Assembly (NCBI RefSeq): GCF_009177095.1
Contig: NZ_AP021861.1
Span: forward strand, 6,120,501-6,184,500
Direction: 5' to 3'
DNA length: 64,000 nt
Origin: Lacipirellula parvula
GTDB taxonomy: Bacteria > Planctomycetota > Planctomycetia > Pirellulales > Lacipirellulaceae
Of the stretch, positions 160 through 63,071 are shown piece after piece; position 1 is the first letter of the stretch, and each line of letters begins with the position of its first letter. Below the pieces are notes generated by a model. The model ran no database searches, was not told where the DNA came from, and worked only from the letters and a program-made list of their open reading frames with translations. Both the position numbers and the translations under genes were made by a program.

Positions 160-3100
160 ATGGGTCTGAACGTACGCCGCCAGGGATGGGATGATCGCCG
201 GTTGGCGATCGAGGCGCTGGAAGACCGGCGGGTGCTGGCGGTTGATTTTGAACTGCTGAAGGACATTAACACGCTCCAACCGCAAGGCTCTGGCCCCAAC
301 TCCTTCGTGACGATCGGATCGACGACGTACTTCATCGCCAGTACGGAAGGATCAGGCGAGCAGCTCTGGAAGACCGACGGCACATCGACTGGCACCTCGT
401 TAGTGGCTGCGAATTCGCCCACAATTTACTCCGCTGGTCTTTCCACGCGTCTATTCAAACTCGACGAAGTCTTATACTTCGTCGCCGACGACCAGCTCCA
501 CGGCTATGAACTTTGGCGAAGCGATGGCACGGAAGCGGGCACTTTCCTCGTGAAAGACATCTCGCCGGGAAAACAAGGCGGATCGATATACAATATAACG
601 CTCTCCAGCGGTCGACTTTTCTTCGCCGCCAGCGACGGCGTTCATGAACGTGAACTGTGGAGCAGCGATGGCACCGAGGCGGGGACGGCGATGGTCAAGG
701 ACATTCGCCCAGGGGCCTCAGGCGAGATTAACAACCTGACTCCCGTCGACGGCGGCATCTACTTCCTAGCCAATGACGGCGTTAACGGCCGCGAACTCTG
801 GAAATCGGACGGCACTGCTGCCGGAACCTACTTGGTGAAGGACATCGCTCCGGGAGTCGCCCGCACCTTCAGCTACAGCGTTACGCCCCTAATCGAAGTG
901 AACGGTCGTTTGTTCTTCGCAGCAAACGATGGCGCGAACGGCGTCGAGCTGTGGACGTCGCTGGGCTCCGAAGCCACAACGCATCTCGTCAAAGAGCTGG
1001 GAGGAATGTACGGAGACGGCGATCCCCTCTCGCTCACCAATTTCAACGGTCAGCTCTATTTCACGGCTTACTCCGAGCCGCACGGCGGTCGAGAGCTTTG
1101 GACGAGCGACGGGACCGAAAGCGGGACAACGATCGTCAAGGACATCATGACGACGTTTTATTCGATAGGAAGCGATCCCACGGGATTGACGGTGGCTAAC
1201 GGATCATTGTACTTCCGAGCCAACGACTTCTCCCACGGCATTGAACTCTGGAAAACGGACGGAACCGAATCGGGCACCACGATGGTCGTCGACCTCCGCC
1301 CAGGAGTTGACGGTTCGGCGCCGCAAATTTTGGGCGTCCGCGACGGCTTGCTTCATTTCAACGCGAACGACGGCAGCGGTTCCAAACGCTGGATCACCGA
1401 CGGCACGACGGCGGGCACGACTCCGTTCGCCTACCCAACCTCGCCTGAAGGAGAAGTACTGGGGTTTCTATTTCCCCATGCGGTCTCGGGAGGCTATCTC
1501 TTTTCGGCAACGACAACCGCCTATGGCAGTGAGCTTTGGCGAATGGACGCCGACGGCTCCAACGTCGCGCTAGTCAAAGACATCAATCCGGCCAATGGCT
1601 CCTCGGATCCCTACAACTTCGTCATTGCCGGAACTCGTGCGATCTTCAATGCCACCGAGGGCCTGACGAGAAATTGGTGGATCACTGACGGTACGGCGAC
1701 GGGCACCGTGCGCTTCGCACCTTATGCCTCCGCAGGCTTGACGGAAATCGCGGGGGTCGTCGCCTCTCACGGTCGTTTTCTATTCACCGCGAAGAATTCG
1801 TCCGGGAGTTTCGATATCTGGGAGAGCGACGGCACGGAGGCGGGGACGCAACGCGTTGCCAATTCGCCTACAAATGGATTCTCGACGCGCCCGATGGTGG
1901 CGCTGGAAACCGAAGATTCACTCTACTTCGGGCTCTCTCAAGGATCTCACTACCAGCTTTGGAAAAGCGACTCCAACGGCATGGCGCCGATTCCCGGAGC
2001 CATCTCCGACATGGGGCTCGCCAAGCCCGGACCGAACGGCTCCCAATTCTTCAAGCGATACAACACCCTAAGAATCACTGACGGCACCGAAGCGGGAACA
2101 ATCACCCTGAAAGAGTTCGGCCTCCAGAACGTGAGCATCTCGCCAGACGCTGCCGGAGACGGCACATCGATCTATTTCGTCGTCGACTACGATCAGCTTT
2201 GGAAAAGCGATGGAACCGTCGCGGGTACGCAGCTGGTTCGATCCTTCGATCTTGGCAACAATGCGCTTTCGCGGCCAATTGCGTTGACGGTAATCAACGG
2301 CACGCTCTACTTCAGCTACATCACCGCCAACGGAAACGCGTTGTGGAAAAGCGACGGAACAGCGGAAGGCACGACGGAAGTTTTCGCACTGGAGAGTGGG
2401 CTCGTTGCGAACATTTACAATCGCGATGATTCGATGTTTTTTCGGACGAACTCCGGTTTCAGCGGTGAGATGTGGTATAGCGACGGAACAGCTGCCCACA
2501 CTGTCCGGCTCAGTTCGCTCCTTCCACCTGAGAGAAGCCCTAGGGCATACTATTTAGACGCCGTCAAAGTGGGCGACGTGATCTATTTCGGCGCGAACGA
2601 CAACGTCAGCGGCGACGAGCTTTGGAGCACGAACCTCGTCACGGGCGAAACGACGCTTGTGAGAGATCATATTGCCGGCCCGATCGGAAGCCGCCCGACA
2701 ACGCTACTCAAAATCGGGCAGCGTATCGTCATCGTCGCTCGATCGGAGACGCACTCGACTGAACTCTGGGCGATGGATTTGCCTCCCATTGCTGGTGACT
2801 ATAACGCCGACGGGCGCGTCGACGGATCGGACTTCTTGGCGTGGCAGCGAGCCTTCGGTTCGGCGGCAAGCCCTGCGGGCAGCGGCGCCGACGGAAATAA
2901 CGACGGAATCGTGAATGGCAGCGACCTGGACGTATGGGAAACCGGATATGGAACCGGAGGCTCTGCGGCCGTCACAGCCAGTTCTGATGCATTCGCCTTG
3001 AGCGAACTTACCGTCACGTCGCTGATTGCAAGCGACGAGATGTCAACGATAACTGTCGACAAGGGCGCCGATGACGCGCTGTTCGGTAGCGCCGCTGATG

Positions 3101-3390
3101 CGGCGTTCGCTTGGCTGGCGGCGGACAGAAGAGGGAAAGACGCCGACGATCGAAACGACTCCGTGACGGACGCCAAGCTTCGCGGCTGGGCGACGCGGCT
3201 ACCCCAAGATCCGTCGGCTAGCGCTGCACAACCAGCGATGACTCGCCAGACGAAGGTTGTTGATCGTGCTGGCGAGCCTCTGTGGAGCCTTCCGCGGAAG
3301 CAGCAGCGTAATGGCAATGGCGAATCAACAATCGCCGGCGAACACGAAGCTAAGTTGGCAGCGTTCGGCCGGGCAGGCAGGCACGGGTAG
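160..3390 (+). CDS. ELWxxDGT-repeat surface protein with C-terminal dockerin
   Basis: The 1076-residue product is a probable exported or surface protein. Near the N-terminus (residues about 18-27) is a planctomycete LEPR-like motif (IEALEDRRVLA) in place of an ordinary signal peptide. Residues about 65-870 contain at least a dozen copies of an ELWxxDGTxxGT motif spaced roughly 45-60 residues apart, plus several degenerate copies; this repeat family is thought to form beta-propeller-like folds. A dockerin type I module with two Ca-binding DxNxDGxVDGSD-like loops lies at about 879-932. After it comes a low-complexity tail with the short motif ADAAFAWLA. The start ATG follows an AAAGAG-like ribosome site. 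The ligand is unknown. The family call is strong and the role is inferred. Confidence 0.85.
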   Translation: MGLNVRRQGWDDRRLAIEALEDRRVLAVDFELLKDINTLQPQGSGPNSFVTIGSTTYFIASTEGSGEQLWKTDGTSTGTSLVAANSPTIYSAGLSTRLFKLDEVLYFVADDQLHGYELWRSDGTEAGTFLVKDISPGKQGGSIYNITLSSGRLFFAASDGVHERELWSSDGTEAGTAMVKDIRPGASGEINNLTPVDGGIYFLANDGVNGRELWKSDGTAAGTYLVKDIAPGVARTFSYSVTPLIEVNGRLFFAANDGANGVELWTSLGSEATTHLVKELGGMYGDGDPLSLTNFNGQLYFTAYSEPHGGRELWTSDGTESGTTIVKDIMTTFYSIGSDPTGLTVANGSLYFRANDFSHGIELWKTDGTESGTTMVVDLRPGVDGSAPQILGVRDGLLHFNANDGSGSKRWITDGTTAGTTPFAYPTSPEGEVLGFLFPHAVSGGYLFSATTTAYGSELWRMDADGSNVALVKDINPANGSSDPYNFVIAGTRAIFNATEGLTRNWWITDGTATGTVRFAPYASAGLTEIAGVVASHGRFLFTAKNSSGSFDIWESDGTEAGTQRVANSPTNGFSTRPMVALETEDSLYFGLSQGSHYQLWKSDSNGMAPIPGAISDMGLAKPGPNGSQFFKRYNTLRITDGTEAGTITLKEFGLQNVSISPDAAGDGTSIYFVVDYDQLWKSDGTVAGTQLVRSFDLGNNALSRPIALTVINGTLYFSYITANGNALWKSDGTAEGTTEVFALESGLVANIYNRDDSMFFRTNSGFSGEMWYSDGTAAHTVRLSSLLPPERSPRAYYLDAVKVGDVIYFGANDNVSGDELWSTNLVTGETTLVRDHIAGPIGSRPTTLLKIGQRIVIVARSETHSTELWAMDLPPIAGDYNADGRVDGSDFLAWQRAFGSAASPAGSGADGNNDGIVNGSDLDVWETGYGTGGSAAVTASSDAFALSELTVTSLIASDEMSTITVDKGADDALFGSAADAAFAWLAADRRGKDADDRNDSVTDAKLRGWATRLPQDPSASAAQPAMTRQTKVVDRAGEPLWSLPRKQQRNGNGESTIAGEHEAKLAAFGRAGRHG

Positions 3391-33411: not shown

Positions 33412-35148
33412 CTACTTCACTTCCGGCAACTCGCTCTGCCCGTCGAACTTCTCCGGCAGATCGATCGCCGGCGTCGGCTCCAACGCGGGGTCTCCATCCG
33501 CCTCGTCCGTCGCAGCGTTCGGATCCACCGGCGTCGGCACATTAGCTCCATCGCCGTTGACCTGCTCCGGCTGAATTTCTTCGACTGGCGGAAGCTCCAT
33601 GGGCGGAGCCCCGTTCAGCCGAATCTGCCAACCGCCGCCCAAGGCCCGGTTGATTTCCACCAAGCTGCGAGCCACGGTCCCCTCGGACACCGCGAGGGCG
33701 TCCTGTTGCTGCACAAGGAAGAGTTCGGCGACGAACACGCGGCCGAAGTCTGCCTGACCGCCCTGGTACAACTCGTTCACGAGGTCGCGTGATTGAGCCG
33801 CCGCGGCGACGCCGGTCCGCAAGATGCGAACCTGCTCCTGAGCTTGCAAGAACTGGACGATCGCGTCTTCCGCTTCGCGATTCGCATCGAGCACCGTCTG
33901 TTGGTACAGCGATACCTGCTGCATGAAGCGGGCCTCTTCCGCCGCGACCAAGTTGCGGATACGGCCGTAGTTGAAAATATTCCAGCTGAACGTCGGGCCG
34001 GCATTACCGCCCGTAGCGCTGGACAGGAACAGGTTTTGGAACTGGCTGGCCCGGACGAAGATCTGGCCGGTGATCGAGAACGCCGGGTAGAGGTCGGCCT
34101 CGGCGACGCCGATCAACGCACTTTGCTGAGCGACCAACCGTTCCTGGCGACGCACGTCGGGACGGCGGCGAACCAAGTCGGCCGGGATGCCAAGCACGAC
34201 TTCCGCGGGCGCCGTCGGAATCGGACGAATGCCGCCCGGACCGGCGAGCATCGCTTTGATGTCTTGCGGCGGCATGCCCATCAGCGTGCAGAGGCGGTTC
34301 TCGGCACGACGCAGGTCGGCTTCGAACTGCGGAATCGTCGCTTCCGTTTGCGAGACGTTGGTAACGGCTTGCGACACGTCGAGCTGACTCGACACGCCCG
34401 CCTGTTGTTTGTCTTCCGCCAAACGCAGCGAGCCGCTCTGGCTCTCGACGTTCTGGCGAGCGTAACGAAGCCGTTGCTCGAGCGTCCGCACGTCAACGTA
34501 CGCTGAAGCGACGTCGGCGATCAGAATCACGAGCACGTCGTCGTAATCTTCAATCGAGGCGTCAAGCTGCGCGTCGGCCGCTTCGATCGACCGGCGGAAC
34601 TGACCCCAGAAGTCGAGTTCCCATTGGAACTGCGTGCCCAAGGTCCACACGCTGAACTCGCGTGAGATGCCCGGCAAGCCGCCGCCGCCGCCGCCGGTGA
34701 ACCCGACCTGCTCGCTCAACAGGTTGCGTTGGTAACCGCCGAAGGCCGTTTGCGATTGCGGAAACAGATTGCCGCGAGCGTACGCATCGAGCGCGCGGGC
34801 TTCCATCACGCGGAAACCGGCCTGCCGCAGCGTGAGGTTTTGCTGCGAGGCGGTTTGAATCAGCTCGTTGAGAATGGGATCGTTGAACGTCGACCACCAC
34901 GCCCAGTTGTTCTGCGGCTGGCTGATGACGCGCGCATCCGCGTAATCAATCCAGTGCTCGGCCACAGGCGCGGCCGGCTTGCAGTAGTTCGGGCCGACTT
35001 TGAACCCGTTCTGGAAATACTCTTTGCAGCTCGTCATGCAGCCGCTCATGAGCGTCAGGCACGAGAGCCCCCAACAGGCGGCAACAACCAGGGGATGATG
35101 GCGGCGCGGGCCGCCTCTCGGTTGTTCCGTGGAGCGTCGAAAATCCAT
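33412..35148 (-). CDS. TolC/NodT-family outer-membrane efflux lipoprotein
   Basis: A 578-residue outer-membrane channel of the RND-type efflux lipoprotein family. The start at 35148 gives a signal region with lipobox LMSGC. The family opening motif FKVGPNYCKPAAPVAEHW follows, then the two TolC-like helical hairpin repeats, with PEFSVWTLG-like beta parts, DLVRRRPDVRRQERLVA and a NELYQGGQADFGRVF region near 480. The C-terminal 50 residues are Pro/Glu/Asp-rich. No RND pump or adaptor gene is adjacent, so it is an orphan here. It would form the outer-membrane exit duct of a pump encoded elsewhere. Confidence 0.9.
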   Translation of the reverse strand: MDFRRSTEQPRGGPRRHHPLVVAACWGLSCLTLMSGCMTSCKEYFQNGFKVGPNYCKPAAPVAEHWIDYADARVISQPQNNWAWWSTFNDPILNELIQTASQQNLTLRQAGFRVMEARALDAYARGNLFPQSQTAFGGYQRNLLSEQVGFTGGGGGGLPGISREFSVWTLGTQFQWELDFWGQFRRSIEAADAQLDASIEDYDDVLVILIADVASAYVDVRTLEQRLRYARQNVESQSGSLRLAEDKQQAGVSSQLDVSQAVTNVSQTEATIPQFEADLRRAENRLCTLMGMPPQDIKAMLAGPGGIRPIPTAPAEVVLGIPADLVRRRPDVRRQERLVAQQSALIGVAEADLYPAFSITGQIFVRASQFQNLFLSSATGGNAGPTFSWNIFNYGRIRNLVAAEEARFMQQVSLYQQTVLDANREAEDAIVQFLQAQEQVRILRTGVAAAAQSRDLVNELYQGGQADFGRVFVAELFLVQQQDALAVSEGTVARSLVEINRALGGGWQIRLNGAPPMELPPVEEIQPEQVNGDGANVPTPVDPNAATDEADGDPALEPTPAIDLPEKFDGQSELPEVK

Positions 35149-35642
35149 TTTCGAGTACCCAAAGGGGTCCGGGTCATACAGGCGATGACCAAAATATCGG
35201 CAGGGTGGATTAGCCGGGGGCAGCTCGAAACAGCTGTAACACTTGATCCCACTAGGGGATGCGACAAACAACCGCTATAACCGCGCAAGTTTGACAGGCG
35301 ATGAGAGCCTGGGACGACCTTATGGACGGGCGCGTCCGTCCGGTAGCTGCTAGCAGTGAGAGGCAATGCCCCACGAATTGCACTCCCCATCCCAAGCCCG
35401 CCCATTGAGCCACAGGCCGCGCCCCCTACCAAACAGCTTCCGCCGCTCGCCCCCACAGCGAAACCCCGCGCCTCGTCACTATCCTCCACGCCTTGCGGCA
35501 ACCGCTCGCACCCCGCCAATTGCATGGCAAACCCCGCCGTCGCTCCTTACGATGGAGGTCTCCTCACCGGAACTCCCGCGGCCTCGCTCACAACCAATCC
35601 CGCTGGCGTACCTCTGTCTGTACTACCAACGAACTGAACTTC
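35149..35642. other. Divergent intergenic region, tolC-like/CotH
   Basis: This 494-base region lies between the divergent efflux and CotH genes. Open frames run through it on both strands (for example 35366-35698) because of the high GC content, but they have no start signals or family motifs. No repeat was recognised. Confidence 0.4.
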
Positions 35643-38600
35643 ATGCGCCAACGGCCCCCTGCTTCCGCAACCGACAACGCTCGCCGTCTCGGACTTGAAC
35701 TCCTCGAACCTCGCTGGCCGCTCGATGCGTCGATGCTTCGCATTACGGAGATCGTCGCCTCAAACGACGAGAGCCTCCACGACTACGACGGCGACTCTTC
35801 CGATTGGGTGGAGATTTTCAACCCCGGCGCCGAGGCGGTCGACCTGAGCGGGATGAAGCTCACCGACAACGCCAACAACCTCTCGAAGTGGACCTTCCCC
35901 GCCGGTTCGTCGATCGCCGGCGGCGGCTTTCGGATCGTCTTCGCCTCCAGCAAGAATACGGTAAAGCCAAACGGCGAGATTCATACCAGCTTCAACCTCA
36001 GCGCCGACGGCGAATACCTCGGCCTCGTGGCCGCCGACGGCTTGACGATCATCGATCAGTTCGCGCCGAAATTCCCCGCCCAGACCGAAGACGTCTCCTA
36101 CGGGCGCGGGATGACTGCGCTCGGCTCCAGCGTCACCCTCATTGACGCCGGGGGCGCCGCGAAGGCCTGGGCGCCGACCTCCAGCGTTTACGACGCGACC
36201 TGGACGAGCGTCGGCTTCAACGATGCGGCCTTCAACATCGTCGGGCCCACTGGCCTCGGCTACGAAAACAATCCCGGCGACGCGGTCAACTACGTCGCCG
36301 ACATCGCCACGACAGTTCCCTCGGGCATCGGCTCGCTCTACGTCCGCATGACGTTCGACCTCGCCAATTTTTCAGGGATCCATCAGCTCAAGCTGCGGAT
36401 GAAGTACGACGACGGCTTCCGCGCCTATCTCAATGGCGTGGAGATCGCCGAATCCAACGCCCCCGACGTCACCCGCTGGGATTCGCAAGCGACCGCCGCT
36501 CATGACGACGCGCAGTCGAAGCTGTACCAGGAGTTCGACGTTAGCGCCGCGATTCCGCAGCTCCGCCTTGGCCAAAACGTGCTCGCCATCCACGCCCTCA
36601 ACGTCGCCGCGGGCAGCGACATGCTGCTCACGCCCATCCTCGTCGGCTTCGGCGCACAAATCACTTCGCCGGAGACCATCGGCTTCTTCGAAACGCCGAC
36701 GCCTGGCTACGCCAACATCGCCGCACCGACCGCCGGTTTCGCCGGCAGCCCCACGTTCAGCGTGCCGCACGGCCTGTACGACGCCGCACAACTCGTCTCC
36801 ATCACTAGCGCCACCCCTGGCGCCGTCATCGTCTACACCACCAACGGCTCGACGCCCACAGTCAACGCCGCACTCGTGCCGACTAACGGCACGCTCTACA
36901 CCGGCCCGATCACCATCGCCGCCACGACGACGCTGCGGGCCATCGCGTTCAAGACCGGCTTCAAGCCGTCGTTCATCGAATCGAGCACCTACCTCTTCCT
37001 CAACGACGTGATCAATCAGTCGCCGCTGGGGCAAGTCCCCGCCGGCTGGCCCGCGAGCGGCGTTAACGGCCAACAGCTGAACTACGGCATCGATCCCGAC
37101 ATCGTCAACCTGTACGGCGCCCAGGCGATCAAGGACTCGCTGGCCTCGCTCCCGTCGCTGTCGATCACCACCGACTTGGCGAACCTCTTCGACCCGTCGA
37201 CCGGCATCTACGTCAACGCCTACAGCGACGGCCGCAGTTGGGAACGCGCCGCATCGGCTGAACTGCTCAACCCCGACGGATCGGAAGGCTTCGCCGTCAA
37301 CGCTGGCCTGCGCATCCGCGGCGGGTACAGCCGCACCGGCGACAATCCCAAGCATTCGCTTCGCCTCTACTTCCGCAGCGAGTACGGCGACGGCAAGCTC
37401 GACTACCCCCTCTTCGGCGACGAGGGCGCCAGCGAGTTCGACGTCATCGATCTCCGCACCGATCAGAACTACTCTTGGTCGTTCGACGGCAATCCGCTCA
37501 ATTCGTTCGTTCGCGAAGTCTTCGGTCGCGACATGCAGCGCGAACTCGGCGACCCCTACACCCGCAGCCGCTACTACCACCTCTACCTCAACGGCGTTTA
37601 CTGGGGGATCTACCAAACTCAGGAACGCGTCGAAGAGTTCTACGGCGAAACCTATCTCGGCGGCGACGAAGACGACTACGACGTCGTGAAGTCAGGCTGG
37701 AACGACGGTCTCGGCTACCAGATGGACGCCGGCAACGACGCCGCGTTTCAGCAACTTTACCAATTGGCGCAGAATCTAGCCGTCAACCCGACGACGAACG
37801 CCAACAACTACTACACCCTGCAAGGACTCAACCCCGACGGCACGCGCAACCCGTCGCTTCCGGTGCTGCTCGACGCCGATAATCTGATCAACTACATGCT
37901 GATCATCATTTACACCGGCGGCTACGACTCCAGCCTTTCACGCTTCCTGGGCGATAATCAGGCGAACAACTGGTTCGGCATTTACAATCGCACCGCGGCG
38001 GACGAGGGCTTCCAGTTCTTCATTCACGACAACGAACACTCGCTCGGCGCTGAGGGACAAGGGCACGGCACGCAAAACATCGATCGCACCGGCCCCTTCA
38101 ACAACGGCAATCAAAACAGCCTCTACTACTTCAATCCGACCTATCTCCATCAAGATCTGCTGTCGCACCCCGAGTACCGACAGCGGTTCATCGACAAGGT
38201 TCAGGAATATTTCTTCAATGGCGGACCAATGACGCCGCTGGCGAGCGTCGCTCTGCTGAACCAGCGCATCGCGCAAGTCGAACCCGCCGTCATCGCCGAA
38301 GCAGCGCGATGGGGCGATTCCAAGGTGGCCGTCCCCTACAACAAATCAACCTGGCAGACTGAGATCAACTGGCTGCGTAACACCTACTTCCGCAGTCGCA
38401 GCAGCACCGTGCTGGGGCAACTCCGCGCGGATGGCCTGTACGTTGCGATCCCCGCGTTTAGTCTCGCGTCCAATCGCGTTCCCTTTGGCTCGCTGCTGTC
38501 GCTCGCTTCCGTCGGCGGGGGAACGATTTACTACACGACCGACGGCCAGACCGATCCGCGACTGGTTGGCGGCGCGATCAACCCCTCAGCCGCCGTTCAG

Positions 38601-39281
38601 CCCTTCCTCAGTCCGTTCGCCATCAACGGCAACGTTACGATCCGCGCGCGATTCCGCACCTCGACGGGGGCCTGGTCGCCGCTGGTCGAGATGTCCTACA
38701 CAGCCTACCTCGCCGGCGATTACACGGGCGACGCGGTGGTCGACGGGGCCGATTTCCTCGCCTGGCAGCGCAGTTACGGCGAAGCCGCAACCCCGATCGG
38801 CAGCGGCGCCGACGGCTCGCAAGACGGCGTCATCAACGACGTCGATCTCGACATCTGGAAAGCTCGGTTCGGCGACGTGGCGCCCAGTGCCGCGTCCACA
38901 AACGCCGCTGCCGTCAGCGCCTCTGCCGCGTCGCTGCTCGCCGAGGAAGAGACGCCAACGCCCAGTGCCGCTGTCGCCGACGAGGGCGATTCCCTCCCGG
39001 TCGACGCCGCATTCGCCTCCCTTGCGGGTTGGCGGACGGAATCGTCACTGCCGCCGAACGCCCCATTGCTCGCCATCCGCCGCGAACGCTGGCTCGACGC
39101 TCCCTCGCGACGCGCACATCAAGCGTTCGATCAATCGTGGCCGCCGCGTCTCCGCTGGCAACACGCATCCAGTGTCGGCCTTATCGAAGAATTGCCCGCC
39201 GACGAGCTCGATGCTTCCGCAGCGACGGAGTTGGAGCTTGAAGAGTTCGACGCCGCATTCGATGCATTGCCGGCGATCTAA
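35643..39281 (+). CDS. Giant lamin-tail/CotH/dockerin surface protein
   Basis: A 1212-residue exported protein. An LEPR-type N-terminal motif (LELLEPRWPLDASML) lies at about 18-32. A lamin-tail domain (ITEIVASNDE, DWVEIFNPG) covers about 33-140. A beta-sandwich and a chitobiase C-terminal-like segment (IVYTTNGSTP, LRAIAFKTG) cover about 360-455. A CotH kinase-type domain covers about 550-800, with RGGYSRTGDNPKHSLRLYF and FFIHDNEHSLG. A second chitobiase-like segment lies near 960 and a dockerin at about 1025-1080. The acidic tail ends with two DAAF motifs. Some CotH proteins phosphorylate secreted proteins; activity here is not shown. The stop overlaps the convergent acetyltransferase stop. 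Confidence 0.87.
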   Translation: MRQRPPASATDNARRLGLELLEPRWPLDASMLRITEIVASNDESLHDYDGDSSDWVEIFNPGAEAVDLSGMKLTDNANNLSKWTFPAGSSIAGGGFRIVFASSKNTVKPNGEIHTSFNLSADGEYLGLVAADGLTIIDQFAPKFPAQTEDVSYGRGMTALGSSVTLIDAGGAAKAWAPTSSVYDATWTSVGFNDAAFNIVGPTGLGYENNPGDAVNYVADIATTVPSGIGSLYVRMTFDLANFSGIHQLKLRMKYDDGFRAYLNGVEIAESNAPDVTRWDSQATAAHDDAQSKLYQEFDVSAAIPQLRLGQNVLAIHALNVAAGSDMLLTPILVGFGAQITSPETIGFFETPTPGYANIAAPTAGFAGSPTFSVPHGLYDAAQLVSITSATPGAVIVYTTNGSTPTVNAALVPTNGTLYTGPITIAATTTLRAIAFKTGFKPSFIESSTYLFLNDVINQSPLGQVPAGWPASGVNGQQLNYGIDPDIVNLYGAQAIKDSLASLPSLSITTDLANLFDPSTGIYVNAYSDGRSWERAASAELLNPDGSEGFAVNAGLRIRGGYSRTGDNPKHSLRLYFRSEYGDGKLDYPLFGDEGASEFDVIDLRTDQNYSWSFDGNPLNSFVREVFGRDMQRELGDPYTRSRYYHLYLNGVYWGIYQTQERVEEFYGETYLGGDEDDYDVVKSGWNDGLGYQMDAGNDAAFQQLYQLAQNLAVNPTTNANNYYTLQGLNPDGTRNPSLPVLLDADNLINYMLIIIYTGGYDSSLSRFLGDNQANNWFGIYNRTAADEGFQFFIHDNEHSLGAEGQGHGTQNIDRTGPFNNGNQNSLYYFNPTYLHQDLLSHPEYRQRFIDKVQEYFFNGGPMTPLASVALLNQRIAQVEPAVIAEAARWGDSKVAVPYNKSTWQTEINWLRNTYFRSRSSTVLGQLRADGLYVAIPAFSLASNRVPFGSLLSLASVGGGTIYYTTDGQTDPRLVGGAINPSAAVQPFLSPFAINGNVTIRARFRTSTGAWSPLVEMSYTAYLAGDYTGDAVVDGADFLAWQRSYGEAATPIGSGADGSQDGVINDVDLDIWKARFGDVAPSAASTNAAAVSASAASLLAEEETPTPSAAVADEGDSLPVDAAFASLAGWRTESSLPPNAPLLAIRRERWLDAPSRRAHQAFDQSWPPRLRWQHASSVGLIEELPADELDASAATELELEEFDAAFDALPAI

Positions 39282-57408: not shown

Positions 57409-59550
57409 ATGAGCACCCGGACTCCCGAACACGTGAGCAGCGCGTCGCAACCCGATGATGATGCCGTCAATCGCGCGAAGCAGGAGATCCAGGCGCTCGT
57501 CCAGGAGGTCGTCGCTCTTTCCAAAAGCGAAATCGAAGAGACCGACTTTTTCGCCGCCCTCCTCGAAAAGTCGATCTCCGCGCTAGCGGCCATCGGCGGC
57601 GTCGTGTGGACGCTCGAAGAGGGGCAGCCGTTCAAGCTGCAATATCAGGTCAACCTGCAGCAAACCGGGCTCGCCGCTAGCCAGGCGGCCCAGATGCAGC
57701 ACGCGAAGCTGCTGGGAAGCATCGCCCAGCGGGGCGAACCGCTGCTGATTCCGCCTCACTCCGGCGCCGGCGAAGGGCCAGAGGATGCGGGCGCCGCCAA
57801 CCCGACTGAATATCTGCTCGTCGTCGCCCCCATCAAAACCGATCGCGGCGTCGACGGCCTCGTCGAAATTTTTCAACGCGTCGGCGCACGGCCGACCACC
57901 CAGCGCGGCTACCTGCGCTTCCTCGTGCAGATGTGCGAGATCGCCGGCGAGTATCTCAAGACGCGCCGCCTGCGGCACTTCGTCACCAAGCAATCGCTCT
58001 GGGAGCAACTCGAGAATTTCACCGCCTCGGTCCACACGCGGCTCGACTCGCGGCAAACCGCCTTCACGATCGCCAACGAAGGACGCCGCCTGATTGGCTG
58101 CGATCGCGTCACCGTCGTCCTCCGCAAAGGAAGCTCGTACGTCGTCGAAGCGATCAGCGGGCAAGATACGTTCGACAAGCGTTCAAACGTCGTCCGCATG
58201 CTGCGCAACCTGGCGACGGTCGTCGTTCGCAGCGGCGAAGACCTGTGGTATACGGGCGACACGCAGAACCTCGCGCCGCAAGTTGAGAAGGCGGTCAACG
58301 AGTACGTCGACGAATCGCATACCAAGCAAATCGCCGTCCTGCCGATCCGCGAGCACGATCCGCACGCCGACGACAAAACCCGCGATCGCAAACGCGAGAA
58401 CATGCTCGGCGCGATCATCATCGAACAGCTCGTCGACAGCCGCGCCCCAGACGGGTTGATGCAGCGCGTCGACGTCGTTCGCCGGCATAGCGCCACGGCG
58501 CTTACTAACGCTCAATCGCACGAAGGCTTGTTCCTGCTGCCGCTGTGGCGGTTGATCGGCCAAAGCCGCGTGCTCGTCACGGCCCGCAATCTGCCTAAGA
58601 CGATCCTCGCATCGATTGCGATCGTCGCCGCCGTGCTGGCGATGTGGCTCTTTCCGTGGGATTTCAACGTCACGGCCGACGGCAAGCTGCAGCCTGAAGT
58701 CCGCGCGAATGTTTTCGCCGCGGTCGACGGCCGCATTACTGACGTCCTAGTCACCGAAGGGCAGGCCGTAAAGAAGGGCGAGTTGCTCGCCAAGCAGCGA
58801 AGTTCGCCGCTTGAGGACCAGCGCGCCCAGCTTGAAGGCGAAATCGCCGCCAACGAGCAAGACTATCGTTCGAAGCGAGCCCAGGAAGGCTCGCTCGACA
58901 AAGCGCGAACTCCGGAGGCGGACCTCTACGACCTCCAAAGCCAGATTTCGCAAATCGAAACCAAAGCGATCGCGTTGCAGAAGCAGTTCGAAATCCTCAG
59001 GGAGCAGGAATCGCGACTCAACATCACCAGCCCGATCGACGGCAACATCGTTACTCCCAAGGTGCAAGAACTGCTTCGCGATCGCACTGTCGGCCCCGGC
59101 ACTAAGATCATGGAAATCGCCGACATGACGCAAGACTGGGAGCTGGAACTCAAAGTCCCTGAAGCCAAGATGGGCCACGTCCGCGCGCAGCTGCGCGAGT
59201 TGCACGCTCAGGATCCTAAAGCCCAGCTCGAAGTCACCTTCATCCTGGCAACCAACCCCGACATCGAAGACAAACTCGCCGGCCGCGTCATCTACATCGC
59301 CCCCACTGCCGAGGCCGAAGGCGAAAAAGGAAATCTGGTGACGATGACGGTGGCGTTCAACCAGGAAGAACTCGCCAAGCTCGGCCCCGAGGGCGTCGCC
59401 ACCGAACAGGCGATCGCCGCTCTCAAAGAACACCTCAAAGTCGGTGCCGACGTCAAAGCCAAGATCCGCTGTGGCCGCAAGCCAATCGGCTACGTCTGGT
59501 TCCATGAACTGTGGGAATTCATCCAGTCGCGAATATTGTTCAGAATGTAA
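57409..59550 (+). CDS. GAF-domain membrane-fusion (HlyD-like) protein
   Basis: A 713-residue inner-membrane adaptor. The N-terminal 190 residues are a cytoplasmic GAF-like region (VDGLVEIFQRVGARPTTQRGYLRFLVQM), and a second GAF-like region covers about 200-375 (VTVVLRKGSSYVVEAISGQ, KQIAVLPIREHD). A TM helix lies at about 398-418. The periplasmic HlyD part has the biotinyl-lipoyl halves (VFAAVDGRITDVLVTEGQAVKKGELLAKQRSS and LNITSPIDGNIVTPKVQELL) and a coiled coil between. The C-terminus ends in a CusB-like barrel (KIRCGRKPIGYVW). It starts the GAF-HlyD/HlyD/M50 set and likely couples a cytoplasmic signal to secretion. Confidence 0.85.
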   Translation: MSTRTPEHVSSASQPDDDAVNRAKQEIQALVQEVVALSKSEIEETDFFAALLEKSISALAAIGGVVWTLEEGQPFKLQYQVNLQQTGLAASQAAQMQHAKLLGSIAQRGEPLLIPPHSGAGEGPEDAGAANPTEYLLVVAPIKTDRGVDGLVEIFQRVGARPTTQRGYLRFLVQMCEIAGEYLKTRRLRHFVTKQSLWEQLENFTASVHTRLDSRQTAFTIANEGRRLIGCDRVTVVLRKGSSYVVEAISGQDTFDKRSNVVRMLRNLATVVVRSGEDLWYTGDTQNLAPQVEKAVNEYVDESHTKQIAVLPIREHDPHADDKTRDRKRENMLGAIIIEQLVDSRAPDGLMQRVDVVRRHSATALTNAQSHEGLFLLPLWRLIGQSRVLVTARNLPKTILASIAIVAAVLAMWLFPWDFNVTADGKLQPEVRANVFAAVDGRITDVLVTEGQAVKKGELLAKQRSSPLEDQRAQLEGEIAANEQDYRSKRAQEGSLDKARTPEADLYDLQSQISQIETKAIALQKQFEILREQESRLNITSPIDGNIVTPKVQELLRDRTVGPGTKIMEIADMTQDWELELKVPEAKMGHVRAQLRELHAQDPKAQLEVTFILATNPDIEDKLAGRVIYIAPTAEAEGEKGNLVTMTVAFNQEELAKLGPEGVATEQAIAALKEHLKVGADVKAKIRCGRKPIGYVWFHELWEFIQSRILFRM

Positions 59551-59553
59551 AGG

Positions 59554-59638
59554 CGTCCGTTGTCAGTGGTCAGTAGTCAGTTGCGATTGATTGAACATCC
59601 TCATTAGCAACTGACGACTGACGACTGACCACGGACAA
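59554..59638. repeat. Word-repeat hairpin (CAGTxGTCAGT family)
   Basis: The left arm (59554-59584) is made of GTCAGT words and the right arm (59607-59637) of GACTGAC words. They are reverse complements with a 22-base loop. The element fills the gap between the GAF-HlyD and HlyD genes, ending 13 bases before the next ATG. Confidence 0.88.
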
Positions 59639-59650
59639 ACGGAGTTTCCA

Positions 59651-60619
59651 ATGTCATCCACTCTTCTCGTCATCCTCGCTCTCTTCGCTCAAGTGGCGGA
59701 GACGCCGAATTATCGGTACGGAGGCCAAGACCACAAACAACAGCAAGTGGACGCTAACGGCGACCCCGTGTTCGAGGGAGCGTCGATCACAGCTGAGGAA
59801 GATTCGATCATCTCCGCCGAAGCCGAAGGAACGCTCGTCAAGCTTGCCGTGAAGGAAGGCGATCGCGTCGCCCAGAAGGGCGTGCTCGCAACGATCGACG
59901 AACGTCTGGCGAAGGCTCAAGTCGAAGCGGCCAAGCTGACGCTCGACGCCGCCACCGAGCGTGCGAACGACATGGTCGAAGAAAAGTACGCAATCCTGGC
60001 TCGCGACGTCGCTGAAGTCGATTGGAAGAAAGACGTCGCCGCCAATACGGACAGCCAAAAGGCGGTCACCGAGATTCAGATTTTGCAGAAGAAGCTGGTC
60101 TACGATCGCTCGAACTTGCAGATCGACAAAGCCCGCAAAGATCAAGTCATCGCCAAGAAGGAAGCCGCCGTCAAAGGCGCCGAGCTGAAAGTCGCGGAGA
60201 TCGGTCTCGACCGCCGCATTATCAAGGCGCCGTTCGAAGGCGAGGTCCAGCAGCTCTTTCAAAAAGAATCGCAATGGGTCAACCCGGGCGATCCAATCCT
60301 GCGGCTGGTGAAGTTCGACGTCCTCCGCGTCGAAGGTCGCGTGCTCGCCGCGCACTTCGACCCCGCGGAACTCGCCGGCAAGCCAGTGACCGTGAGCGTC
60401 ACGCTCGCCCGCAACCGGCAAGTGGAGTTGCCTGGCCGGGTCACCTATGTCGGCCAGACGGTCAACATCAACAAGGAGTTCATCGTCCGTGCTGAGATTC
60501 AAAACAAGCGCGAGGGCGACTACTGGCTCGTTCGCCCAGGCCTGATTGCCAAGATGACGATCCACGTGAACCAGCCGGCGGAACCACAAGCCCGCGGCGT
60601 CGCGGCGCCGGCGAAATAG
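59651..60619 (+). CDS. HlyD-family periplasmic adaptor
   Basis: A 322-residue adaptor. The N-terminal hydrophobic segment (LLVILALFAQVAET) is a signal or anchor. The biotinyl-lipoyl half is ISAEAEGTLVKLAVKEGDRVAQKGVLATIDERLAKAQVEAAKLTLD, then a coiled coil (about 85-180), then the second lipoyl half IKAPFEGEVQQLFQKE and a beta-barrel (VSVTLARNRQVELPGRVTYVGQ). The ATG at 59651 has GGAG 6 bases upstream, just after a hairpin. Stop TAG 60617 is the first triplet of a palindromic element. It is the middle gene of the GAF-HlyD/HlyD/M50 set. Confidence 0.9.
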   Translation: MSSTLLVILALFAQVAETPNYRYGGQDHKQQQVDANGDPVFEGASITAEEDSIISAEAEGTLVKLAVKEGDRVAQKGVLATIDERLAKAQVEAAKLTLDAATERANDMVEEKYAILARDVAEVDWKKDVAANTDSQKAVTEIQILQKKLVYDRSNLQIDKARKDQVIAKKEAAVKGAELKVAEIGLDRRIIKAPFEGEVQQLFQKESQWVNPGDPILRLVKFDVLRVEGRVLAAHFDPAELAGKPVTVSVTLARNRQVELPGRVTYVGQTVNINKEFIVRAEIQNKREGDYWLVRPGLIAKMTIHVNQPAEPQARGVAAPAK

Positions 60620-60747
60620 CCTCGTCCCACGCTCCGCGTGACGACGCGGGTGTCGCCACTTTGCGGCGTGTTCGTTTAGCTGCTCAACGATAAACGAATG
60701 ACGCAGCGCGTGGGAACGAGGCGCCGGGGGCGGGACGCCCCGGCTCG
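60617..60747. repeat. TAG-foot palindromic element (TCGTCCCACGC type) with nested palindromes
   Basis: The element starts TAGCCTCGTCCCACGCTCCG, continuing CGTG. The TAG is the stop of the adaptor gene. The matching arm is GCGTGGGAACGAGG (60708-60721). A nested CGTTTAGCTGC...GATAAACG pair and a GC-rich palindrome GCCGGGGGCGGGACGCCCCG lie at its end. Confidence 0.72.
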
Positions 60748-60779
60748 CAAACAGATGCTGAGCAATCGCCCTGACATTC

Positions 60780-60813
60780 GCTGAACCCTGAACCCCGACG
60801 CCTGAACCCTCCC
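60780..60813 (+). repeat. Reiterated CTGAACCC leader before the M50 gene
   Basis: A run of CTGAACCC-type words ends three bases before the M50 ATG at 60816. The same word run ends a few bases before the ilvD ATG (15978-16008). No Shine-Dalgarno is visible in either leader. Confidence 0.7.
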
Positions 60814-60815
60814 GC

Positions 60816-63071
60816 ATGCCCACCCTTGCCGACAGCATCGTCTCCAGCTCGTCGCGCAAGCTCACGATCCGCGCTCGACCCGACCTGAAGTTCCGCAAGC
60901 AGCGGTACCAGGGCCGCACCTATTGGGTGGTGAAAGATCCGGTCGGTCTGCAGTACTTCCGCTTTGAAGAAGAAGAGTTCGCGATCCTGCAGATGCTCGA
61001 CGGCAAGTCGAGCCTCGACGACATCGCCGAACAATTCGAAGCCGAGTTCCCGCCGCAAACGATTCGCGTCGAGGAACTCCAAAACTTCATCGGCATGCTC
61101 CACAAGAGCGGCCTCGTCCTCTCCGACGCCTCGGGCCAAGGCTGGGCGCTCAAGGAACGTCGCGACGAAAAGAAACGCCGCGAACTTCTCGGCGCCCTCA
61201 GCAACGTGATGGCATTCCGCATGCGGGGCATCGACCCCGAGCGGCTGCTGAACTGTCTCTACCCGTACGTTCGTTGGTTCTTCACCCCGGCGGCGACGAT
61301 CGGCGCGCTCATGCTCGCCGCGGCGGCGCTGTCGCTGGTGATTGTTCAGTTCGACATTTTCAAGTCGCGACTGCCCGACTTCAATTCATTCTTCTCGGCG
61401 CAAAACTGGCTCGCCCTGGCCATCACGCTCACGGCGACGAAGATCTTGCACGAGTTCGGCCACGGCATGTCGTGCAAGCATTTCGGCGGCGAATGCCACG
61501 AGATGGGCATCATGTTCCTGGTGATGACGCCCTGCCTGTACTGCAACGTTTCTGACTCGTGGATGCTCCCCAATCGCTGGCATCGCGCCGCGATCGGCGC
61601 GGCAGGGATGTACGTCGAAGTCTGTCTCGCGTCGATCTGCACGTTTATCTGGTGGTTCAGCCAGCCGGGACCGCTGAATTACTTCTGCTTGAACGTCATG
61701 TTCGTCAGCTCGGTAAGCACGATCATGTTCAACGCCAACCCCCTGCTCCGCTACGACGGCTACTATATCCTCAGCGATATCCTTGAGATCCCCAACCTGC
61801 GGCAGAAGGCGAGCACGATCCTCAATCGCAAGCTCGGCAAATGGTGCCTGGGGCTCGAAGAACAGGAAGACCCGTTCCTTCCCAAGCGGCACCAGGCGCT
61901 GTTCGCCCTCTACACGATCGCCTCGGCCCTTTATCGCTGGGTGGTCCTCTTCTCGATCTTGTTCTTCTTGAATAAGGTGTTCGAGCCGTACGGCTTGAAG
62001 GTATTGGGCCAGGCGCTCGCGATTGCCTCGATCTACGGGATGTTCGTCATGCCGGCGATGGCCGTCTGGAAATTCTTTCGCGTCCCCGGGAGGTGGAGCA
62101 AGGTGAAGCGGGTTCGACTTTACATCACCTTGTCGCTGCTGGCAGGCGTCGTCGCGTCGCTCTTCCTCGTTCCGCTGCCAATGCACGTGATGGCGCCGTT
62201 CGAACTGCAGCCCTATGACGCCGACAGCGTCTACGTCGAAGTTCCGGGCCGATTGGTACAGGTCGCCGTCAAACCTGGCCAGCGCGTGAAGAAGGGCGAC
62301 ATGATCGCTCAGCTCGAGAACCTCGAACTTGAAATGTCGATCGCCAAACTCGAAGGCGAACGCGCCGGGCTGCTCACAGAACTCGAGACGCTCGATTCCC
62401 TGCTTTATCAACCTTCAAAAGCACAGGAGGCGGCCCTGCGCTGGGACACCGCGCACAAGCAGCTCGAAGGCAACTCCAAACAACTCGCCCAAAAAGAAGC
62501 CGATCTCAAGCGGCTTACGATCACCGCCCCCCGCGACGGCGTTATCATTCCGCCGCTGCGCACGCTCGACCGTCCCCGTACCGACGTCGCCGAACTTCCC
62601 CCCTGGACCGGCACGCCGCTCGACGAGCGCAACCTCGGTTCCAGCCTCTCGCCGCAAGGTCAGCAGAATCTGATCTGCATGATCGGCGATCCCAACGAAT
62701 GGGAGGCGGTGATGATCGTCGACCAGGACGACTTCGGCCTCGTCCTGGACGGCCAAGAAGTGCAGTTGATGTTCGAGGAGTCGGCTTACCATGTGTTCAA
62801 GACGCACATCTCCAGCATCAGCGGCGAGCATGTCACCGCCGCGCCGACGCGGCTCGCGAGCAGCAACGGCGGCTCCCTCGCCGCCCAGCAGAACCCCGAC
62901 GGCTCGATCAGCCCGCTGAACACGTCATTCCAAGTCACGGCCCGGCTGAACAACTCGCAAGAACTGCTCCACAACGGCCTCACCGGCGCCGCCCGCATCG
63001 ACGTCGAGCCCAAAACCGTCATGCAACGCGTCGGGCGGTACCTGGCTCGAACGTTCAACTTCGAGTTGTAG
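60816..63071 (+). CDS. PqqD-like/M50 site-2-protease/HlyD fusion membrane protein
   Basis: A 751-residue multi-domain membrane protein. The N-terminal PqqD-like helical region (about 40-105, EEEFAILQMLDGKSSLDDIAEQF and ELQNFIGMLHKSGLV) is followed by an M50 zinc-protease core: HEFGH at 212-216 with a second HEMG, and the distal D314 in NPLLRYDGYYILSD, in a bundle of six or more TM segments (about 155-460). After about 465 the C-terminal part has HlyD/lipoyl halves (VYVEVPGRLVQVAVKPGQRVKKGDMIAQLENL, LTITAPRDGVIIPP) and a coiled coil. The PqqD-like domain usually binds peptide precursors. It likely cleaves and moves a peptide or protein substrate. Confidence 0.88.
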   Translation: MPTLADSIVSSSSRKLTIRARPDLKFRKQRYQGRTYWVVKDPVGLQYFRFEEEEFAILQMLDGKSSLDDIAEQFEAEFPPQTIRVEELQNFIGMLHKSGLVLSDASGQGWALKERRDEKKRRELLGALSNVMAFRMRGIDPERLLNCLYPYVRWFFTPAATIGALMLAAAALSLVIVQFDIFKSRLPDFNSFFSAQNWLALAITLTATKILHEFGHGMSCKHFGGECHEMGIMFLVMTPCLYCNVSDSWMLPNRWHRAAIGAAGMYVEVCLASICTFIWWFSQPGPLNYFCLNVMFVSSVSTIMFNANPLLRYDGYYILSDILEIPNLRQKASTILNRKLGKWCLGLEEQEDPFLPKRHQALFALYTIASALYRWVVLFSILFFLNKVFEPYGLKVLGQALAIASIYGMFVMPAMAVWKFFRVPGRWSKVKRVRLYITLSLLAGVVASLFLVPLPMHVMAPFELQPYDADSVYVEVPGRLVQVAVKPGQRVKKGDMIAQLENLELEMSIAKLEGERAGLLTELETLDSLLYQPSKAQEAALRWDTAHKQLEGNSKQLAQKEADLKRLTITAPRDGVIIPPLRTLDRPRTDVAELPPWTGTPLDERNLGSSLSPQGQQNLICMIGDPNEWEAVMIVDQDDFGLVLDGQEVQLMFEESAYHVFKTHISSISGEHVTAAPTRLASSNGGSLAAQQNPDGSISPLNTSFQVTARLNNSQELLHNGLTGAARIDVEPKTVMQRVGRYLARTFNFEL

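Follow-up and report, generated by a model that had tools for sequence, protein, structure and literature searches.

A PqqD/RRE-M50-HlyD fusion with two further HlyD-type adaptors in Lacipirellula parvula: a candidate export and leader-processing machine for large LEPR proteins

In our study, a window of 64,000 nucleotides from the genome of Lacipirellula parvula (NZ_AP021861.1, positions 6,120,501 to 6,184,500) was found to contain three genes, A, B and C, which probably encode the core parts, in the inner membrane and the periplasm, of a machine that exports large LEPR extracellular proteins and processes their leaders. The N-termini of the candidate substrates contained an Arg-rich segment and an E-x-L-E-[PSD]-R-x-[LVM]-[LM]-[AS] motif, which is described by NCBIfam LEPR-8K (NF012209, LEPR-XLL domain) and Pfam Planc_extracel (PF07595). 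Substrate processing and export, as the sequence-only reading had suggested, is the best reading of the trio because C has an RRE fold and an intact, invariant M50 site and because TolC stands beside the adaptors in relatives. The substrates are likely to be large to giant LEPR extracellular proteins and not a small RiPP.

Domains of the trio and its surroundings

The three open reading frames were confirmed (Table 1), all of them co-directional on the plus strand, as had been read from the sequence, with gaps of 100 and 196 bp. Two adaptors had been described, one of them with several GAF domains; the adaptors were found, but a single GAF domain was detected. In the Pfam scan, the GAF domain of A (PF01590) was present at residues 216-316 and the HlyD/biotinyl-lipoyl region at residues 433-654. 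A contained a single hydrophobic segment near residues 392-415, with the N-terminal half cytoplasmic and the adaptor part periplasmic. B, with a hydrophobic signal at its N-terminus, was retained by homology; a GC3-based gene caller had favoured an antisense ORF over it. HlyD domains, the adaptor feature of type I secretion, were present in A, B and C.

Domain scans and fold agreed with the proposed fusion of PqqD-like, M50 and HlyD parts in C. PqqD alone scored 21.6 bits, just under the Pfam cut-off of 23.4. The AlphaFold2 model of residues 1-126, built from 32 homologues (pLDDT 86.9), had the three-stranded winged-helix fold of the PqqD/RRE superfamily. The top PDB matches of this model in Foldseek were PqqD (5sxy), the leader-bound lasso-peptide B1 proteins TbiB1 (5v1v) and TfuB1 (6jx3), and TigE (8vpo), with a probability of 1.00, yet with E-values of 0.004-0.025; the N-terminal domain was thus PqqD-like, as proposed. 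The family profile of C also retrieved the RRE structure of TfuB1 (lasso-peptide RRE; 6jx3_B) with E=0.0022. The full-length model (pLDDT 89.0) showed the RRE domain, a protease core within the membrane and a domain in the periplasm; the best Foldseek matches of the last, the HlyD domain, were MacA, AcrA, MexA and ZneB.

The M50 family (PF02163) matched C with 29.1 bits (cut-off 27.2). The HExxH and NPxxRxDG motifs were invariant in 43 homologues; HExxH and the DG pair were situated in the predicted helices 195-222 and 314-323, respectively. D314 is presumably the third zinc ligand, of the site-2-protease type. Judged from its residues, C has an intact M50 active site and is a predicted protease. 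By profile score, the nearest named family of C is the daptide RRE-intramembrane peptidase (NF041824, daptide_HExxH), below its cut-off: the match spanned the PqqD and M50 parts (residues 30-406) with 189.9 bits against a cut-off of 300. The C proteins of a second, paralogous trio of L. parvula and of Escherichia coli scored 155.8 and 172.6 bits, respectively, also below 300, and the LiaK/YydH family (NF058609) matched C with 44 bits (cut-off 225).

The neighbours of the window trio were infA and a 2-hydroxyacid dehydrogenase, and no LEPR gene adjoined it. Neither an ABC exporter nor a radical SAM enzyme was found by Pfam among about 40 ORFs of the window, part of the small ORFs included. This agreed with the sequence-only reading, which had also seen no precursor peptide in the window; as regards substrates it needs correction, since two LEPR proteins, which are candidate substrates, were present. 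A 1,288-aa AsmA/DUF748-like protein was observed downstream of the trio (L008:7437-11303, plus strand). In locus L058, the gene directly downstream of C encoded a protein of 1,252 aa that matched DUF748 weakly, and the adjacent family was also present in locus L100; because of these counterparts, the DUF748-like neighbour may be kept in the closest relatives.

Table 1. Coordinates of the trio, accessory candidates and candidate substrates (window positions unless a locus name is given)
Feature	Position	Strand	Description
Gene A	57409..59550	+	713 aa; GAF, hydrophobic segment, HlyD (Pfam)
Gene B	59651..60619	+	322 aa; HlyD/RND-type periplasmic adaptor (Pfam, NCBIfam)
Gene C	60816..63071	+	751 aa; PqqD/RRE-M50 intramembrane protease-HlyD fusion
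PqqD/RRE-like winged-helix domain of C	60867..61124	+	about residues 18-103, predicted cytosolic; AlphaFold2, PDB matches
Zinc motif HEFGH of C	61449..61463	+	residues 212-216; H212, E213, H216 invariant (43 homologues)
NPLLRYDG of C	61737..61760	+	residues 308-315; N308, P309, D314, G315 invariant (43 homologues)
Periplasmic HlyD adaptor domain of C	62172..63020	+	about residues 453-735; Foldseek
NodT-type TolC	33412..35271	-	PF02321, TIGR01845 308 bits; divergent from LEPR protein at 35640
Candidate substrate, ELWxxDGT-repeat and dockerin	160..3390	+	1,076 aa; PF07595 at 193-246
Candidate substrate, CotH/lamin-tail/chitobiase-C	~35640..39281	+	Pfam
DUF3467	L163:16322-16714	-	upstream of the beta-helix giant
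Beta-helix LEPR giant	L163:4105-16068	-	3,987 aa
ELWxxDGT-like LEPR protein	L164:512-3778	+	1,088 aa
DUF3467	L164:4991-5449	-
Short SecA-like ATPase	L159:7545-9509	-	654 aa; no linkage to either trio

LEPR proteins and the distribution of the trio

The same genome contained one paralogous trio (GAF-HlyD, HlyD and PqqD-M50-HlyD), 40 kb downstream and encoded on the minus strand; a TolC gene (PF02321) stood on one side of it in divergent orientation. The next large co-directional gene encoded a PKD-repeat protein of 1,856 aa. The N-terminus of this protein (...LAPRRLEPRRMLDAAAP...) contained the LEPR motif LEPRRMLDAA, and its presence beside the second trio led us to suspect LEPR proteins as the substrates.

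More than 30 candidate LEPR substrates were found in this genome, two of them within the window. The ELWxxDGT-repeat protein contained the LEPR-type motif EALEDRRVLA (N-terminus EALEDRRVLAVDF). The ORF of the CotH/lamin-tail protein opens at 35493 and the ATG at 35640 was preferred (N-terminus RRLGLELLEPRWPLDAS; the start was also read LELLEPRWPLDAS). A first motif regex was tried as a genome pattern and matched the reverse control as often as the real sequence, so the profile families were used instead. The N-termini of 32 proteins of this genome were compared, comprising 29 PF07595 matches and 3 found via LEPR-8K. The consensus was R-R-L-R-F-E-x-L-E-[SDP]-R-[QR]-[VL]-[LM]-A-[AVG]-D, and the E(-2), L0, E1 and R3 residues were invariant in the 31 aligned, an invariance that is partly selected because these positions belonged to the recognition model or regex. 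The 25 residues upstream of the motif contained a mean of 6.3 K/R versus 0.8 D/E in this genome. A Kyte-Doolittle 12-residue mean of at least 2.2 was reached by none of the 32 LEPR N-termini, whereas it was reached by 43 of 58 B proteins; by this simple measure the LEPR segment is not an ordinary Sec signal peptide, as it has no Sec-like hydrophobic core. A PEP-CTERM match was observed inside a 12,608-aa open frame of a planctomycete of the same order (G242:C11:57167-57241).

The neighbourhood of 80 C relatives from named planctomycete genomes was compared using flanks of up to 10 kb, in which ORFs of at least 60 aa were clustered. A-B-C was found to be a conserved unit, with C in 76 of the 80 loci, B-type genes in 57 and A-type genes in 54, many contigs being fragmentary. 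The recurrent neighbours were DUF3467 (18 loci), a short SecA-like gene (7 loci; PF07517, 353 bits) and TolC (4 loci), and the remaining flanks were variable. No gene for a small precursor, a radical SAM enzyme or an ABC exporter recurred beside the trio in these loci, and no methyltransferase, aminotransferase or pump gene and no daptide biosynthetic cluster was conserved there. Of the linked small peptide, ABC transporter or TolC gene that had been considered, TolC was therefore found in part of the loci and the other two did not recur; the proposed small ribosomal-peptide substrate was not upheld. The clustering left DUF3467 as the sole recurrent small neighbour when a RiPP precursor was sought, and a housekeeping operon was likewise rejected, as the infA, lysA and 2-hydroxyacid dehydrogenase flanks were not kept beside the relatives.

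Across 294 planctomycete genomes of at least 90% completeness, C was present in 102 (35% baseline). LEPR-8K (E<=0.01) was found in 46 genomes, and 44 of these contained C (hypergeometric 2e-21). Among the 34 LEPR-8K genomes that belong to other classes than the window organism, 32 contained C (P=7e-24, against a 21% baseline); this class split is the sole phylogenetic correction of the counts, and genomes of one family are not independent. The two LEPR-8K genomes without C were 91%-complete metagenome assemblies. In the PEP-CTERM control (142 genomes), 44% contained C. PF07595 was present in 39 genomes, 31 of them with C, and for PF07595 alone outside the class the association was not significant (6 of 14, P=0.05). 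LEPR-8K was found within 15 kb of C 9 times (1.4 expected) and PF07595 within 35 kb 14 times (3.2 expected). No LEPR-8K match at E<=0.01 was present in 58 of the 102 C-positive genomes.

Proteobacterial homologues of C were taken from plasmid records annotated by others. Between planctomycetes and proteobacteria, the homology of the A proteins extended across the GAF-like part, the membrane part and the HlyD part (hhalign 99.8%). The first type of operon, giant-TolC-B-A-C, was found in Azospirillum brasilense, Azospirillum sp. TSA2s, Niveispirillum, Burkholderia anthina, Variovorax and E. coli. The second type, without TolC or B, was found in Pseudosulfitobacter (giant-DUF3467-A-C-SecA-like) and Alisedimentitalea (giant-A-C-SecA-like). 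Magnetospirillum contained an ELWxxDGT protein followed by TolC-B-A-C, the motif being absent from the annotated ORF, and Phyllobacterium contained A-C only, with no motif-bearing neighbour recognised and an unrelated T1SS pair 3 kb away. The motif was present in all eight operon giants with a readable N-terminus (FEPRVLLSAD, LEPRMMFDAA, LEPRFMFDAA twice, LEPRVVYDAS, LESRQLFDGA, LEARYMFDAA and LEPRLLLAAD); in two of the eight the annotated start lay downstream of the motif, which was read in an in-frame upstream extension. No linked ABC gene was found among the neighbouring genes of the annotated A-B-C operons; an ABC protein encoded in trans may still take part. In Variovorax (CP063167.1:19413-68132; L151/L156), the predicted protein of about 16,240 aa, with the LEARYMFDAA start, was encoded directly upstream of TolC-B-A-C. 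The E. coli operon, on the IncF-type plasmid pABWA45_1 (L149), had a MalT-like regulator downstream. Among 5,426 complete genomes of this species, 24 contained the A-B-C-TolC part, in most cases on a plasmid. Genes annotated as 'tail fiber protein' recurred near the giant in the Azospirillum, Niveispirillum and Burkholderia operons (L136, L142, L146, L147).

The proposed machine and its alternatives

The export model is based on gene content, conservation, folds, the active site, linkage and co-occurrence with LEPR proteins, and from these we infer the binding, the cleavage site, the translocation path, the energy source and the role of GAF. For daptides, MpaP has been described as an intramembrane peptidase that depends on an RRE and takes off the leader (PMC10036551). 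By analogy, the RRE/PqqD domain of C would bind the Arg-rich LEPR leader on the cytosolic side. The unfolded chain would cross the inner membrane, probably driven by a SecA-type ATPase. The fused M50 domain would cut in the membrane, at or near the LEPR element. A conduit through the periplasm, leading to an outer-membrane channel of the TolC type, would be built by the HlyD domains of all three proteins; that the substrate passes through the periplasm is implied by these domains and TolC. The GAF-bearing cytoplasmic half of A may have a gating or assembly role in the machine, and it could sense a small molecule, as the sequence-only reading proposed.

A SecA-type motor is suggested by the short SecA-like genes beside the trio, which were found directly upstream of A in several planctomycete loci. 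This genome contained two SecA genes, one in a 1230-aa frame and the SecA-like one of 654 aa, as in organisms with a SecA2. The motor is uncertain because the SecA-like gene, as well as DUF3467, was unlinked to the trios here and missing from the TolC-type operons, in which the housekeeping SecA may serve. TolC, the outer-membrane factor of type I secretion, adjoined the second trio, was part of the first type of operon and was not present beside the window trio. The NodT-type TolC of the window is a possible but unproven partner; it showed no similarity to the TolC of the second trio, and for this reason it is not claimed as such. DUF3467 was found in 102 of the 294 planctomycete genomes, 81 of them with C. 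By coordinate comparison, at least 27 genomes, which represent 10 families, had DUF3467 no more than 3.5 kb from C. It is a conserved full-length protein of 110-150 aa that was also found beside LEPR giants, both DUF3467 genes of this genome adjoining LEPR proteins, so it looks like an accessory factor and not a precursor. We know of no function for DUF3467, which may be a dedicated chaperone.

The trio could instead be a membrane-stress or efflux module, in which the adaptors serve an RND, ABC or MFS pump encoded in trans and M50 is a regulatory protease, with no tie to LEPR proteins. The housekeeping genes flanking the window trio, the resemblance of the HlyD domains to MacA, AcrA and MexA and the GAF sensor domain of A agree with such a module. 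It is nevertheless unlikely, as no pump gene is conserved beside the trio and as the RRE domain, the LEPR giants in two phyla and the co-occurrence in 44 of 46 genomes would stay unexplained. It is quite unlikely that the role of the trio is limited to processing or anchoring LEPR proteins that general Sec export has already delivered, as a sortase-like maturation device and not a conduit. An M50 protease, a SecA-like gene near some trios and the scarcity of TolC near planctomycete trios would suit this reading, but three HlyD-type adaptor domains, together with TolC in the proteobacterial operons, favour a trans-periplasmic conduit, and the LEPR leaders have no Sec hydrophobic core.

Very unlikely, in our judgement, is RiPP maturation, with C as a daptide- or epipeptide-like peptidase and the adaptors as exporters of a small modified peptide. 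The RRE fold and the matches of the RRE-M50 part to NF041824 and NF058609 point in this direction, but these matches are far under the curated cut-offs. Moreover, the genes that are conserved beside the trio are giants, TolC, SecA-like genes and DUF3467, the last being the only conserved short ORF, and none of the RiPP enzymes looked for was among them.

Relation to known systems and biological meaning

The trio is, provisionally, best described as a variant form of a HlyD/TolC-type export system. Neither a linked ABC gene, as in type I secretion, nor the score and gene cluster of the daptide family were found. It shares with type I secretion (HlyB/HlyD/TolC, LapBCE) the HlyD-family adaptors and TolC and the very large, repetitive, adhesin-like substrates. 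It differs in that no ABC ATPase is conserved among the linked genes, the shared element found, which is the putative signal, is N-terminal LEPR instead of C-terminal, an RRE-M50 protease is fused to an adaptor, and two or three different adaptors are present. The MpaP/NF041824 and YydH/LiaK (NF058609) peptidases likewise combine RRE with an M50 intramembrane metalloprotease, RRE-guided leader removal being the role reported for MpaP (PMC10036551), whereas C adds a periplasmic HlyD domain, scores far below their cut-offs and belongs to a trio with putative substrates of 500-16,000 aa and without RiPP enzymes or a short precursor. Some trios stand beside the gene of an additional SecA-like ATPase that is shorter (about 650 aa), which recalls SecA2/accessory Sec systems; here, however, the bacteria are of the Gram-negative type, the partners are HlyD and TolC, no accessory SecY was seen and many trio loci have no SecA-like gene. 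PEP-CTERM/exosortase and rhombosortase systems also pair a dedicated membrane protease with a short homology signal shared by numerous unrelated surface proteins, but here the putative signal is N-terminal, the protease is an M50 with RRE and the partners are HlyD and TolC.

No description of the trio machine was found in the literature searched, which included few subscription papers or preprints, nor was a receptor, protease or exporter described there for LEPR-8K or Planc_extracel. Nothing relevant to the trio arrangement was found in the passages reached by keyword in a paper on polymorphic toxins (PMC3482391) and in a review of tripartite systems and T1SS (PMC8277102). A distinct Gram-negative secretion type, with an N-terminal LEPR leader read by RRE, a SecA-type motor in place of an ABC exporter, an M50 cut, a mixed HlyD ring and TolC, is a tentative proposal that we hold at slightly less than even strength; if the motor and the signal are as proposed, the system would merit its own secretion type.

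LEPR-8K and Planc_extracel are known, catalogued short N-terminal families that represent a putative signal, for which the trio is a concrete candidate receptor and export route; the RRE groove, HExxH and the LEPR Arg are the candidate residues. Related operons travel on proteobacterial plasmids. If the model is true, the trio links RiPP leader recognition with the secretion of giant surface proteins, and this recognition would have been recruited for proteins of up to 16,000 residues in planctomycetes and proteobacteria. In planctomycetes, the trio may account for the export of large surface proteins, dozens in number, that have no Sec-like signal.
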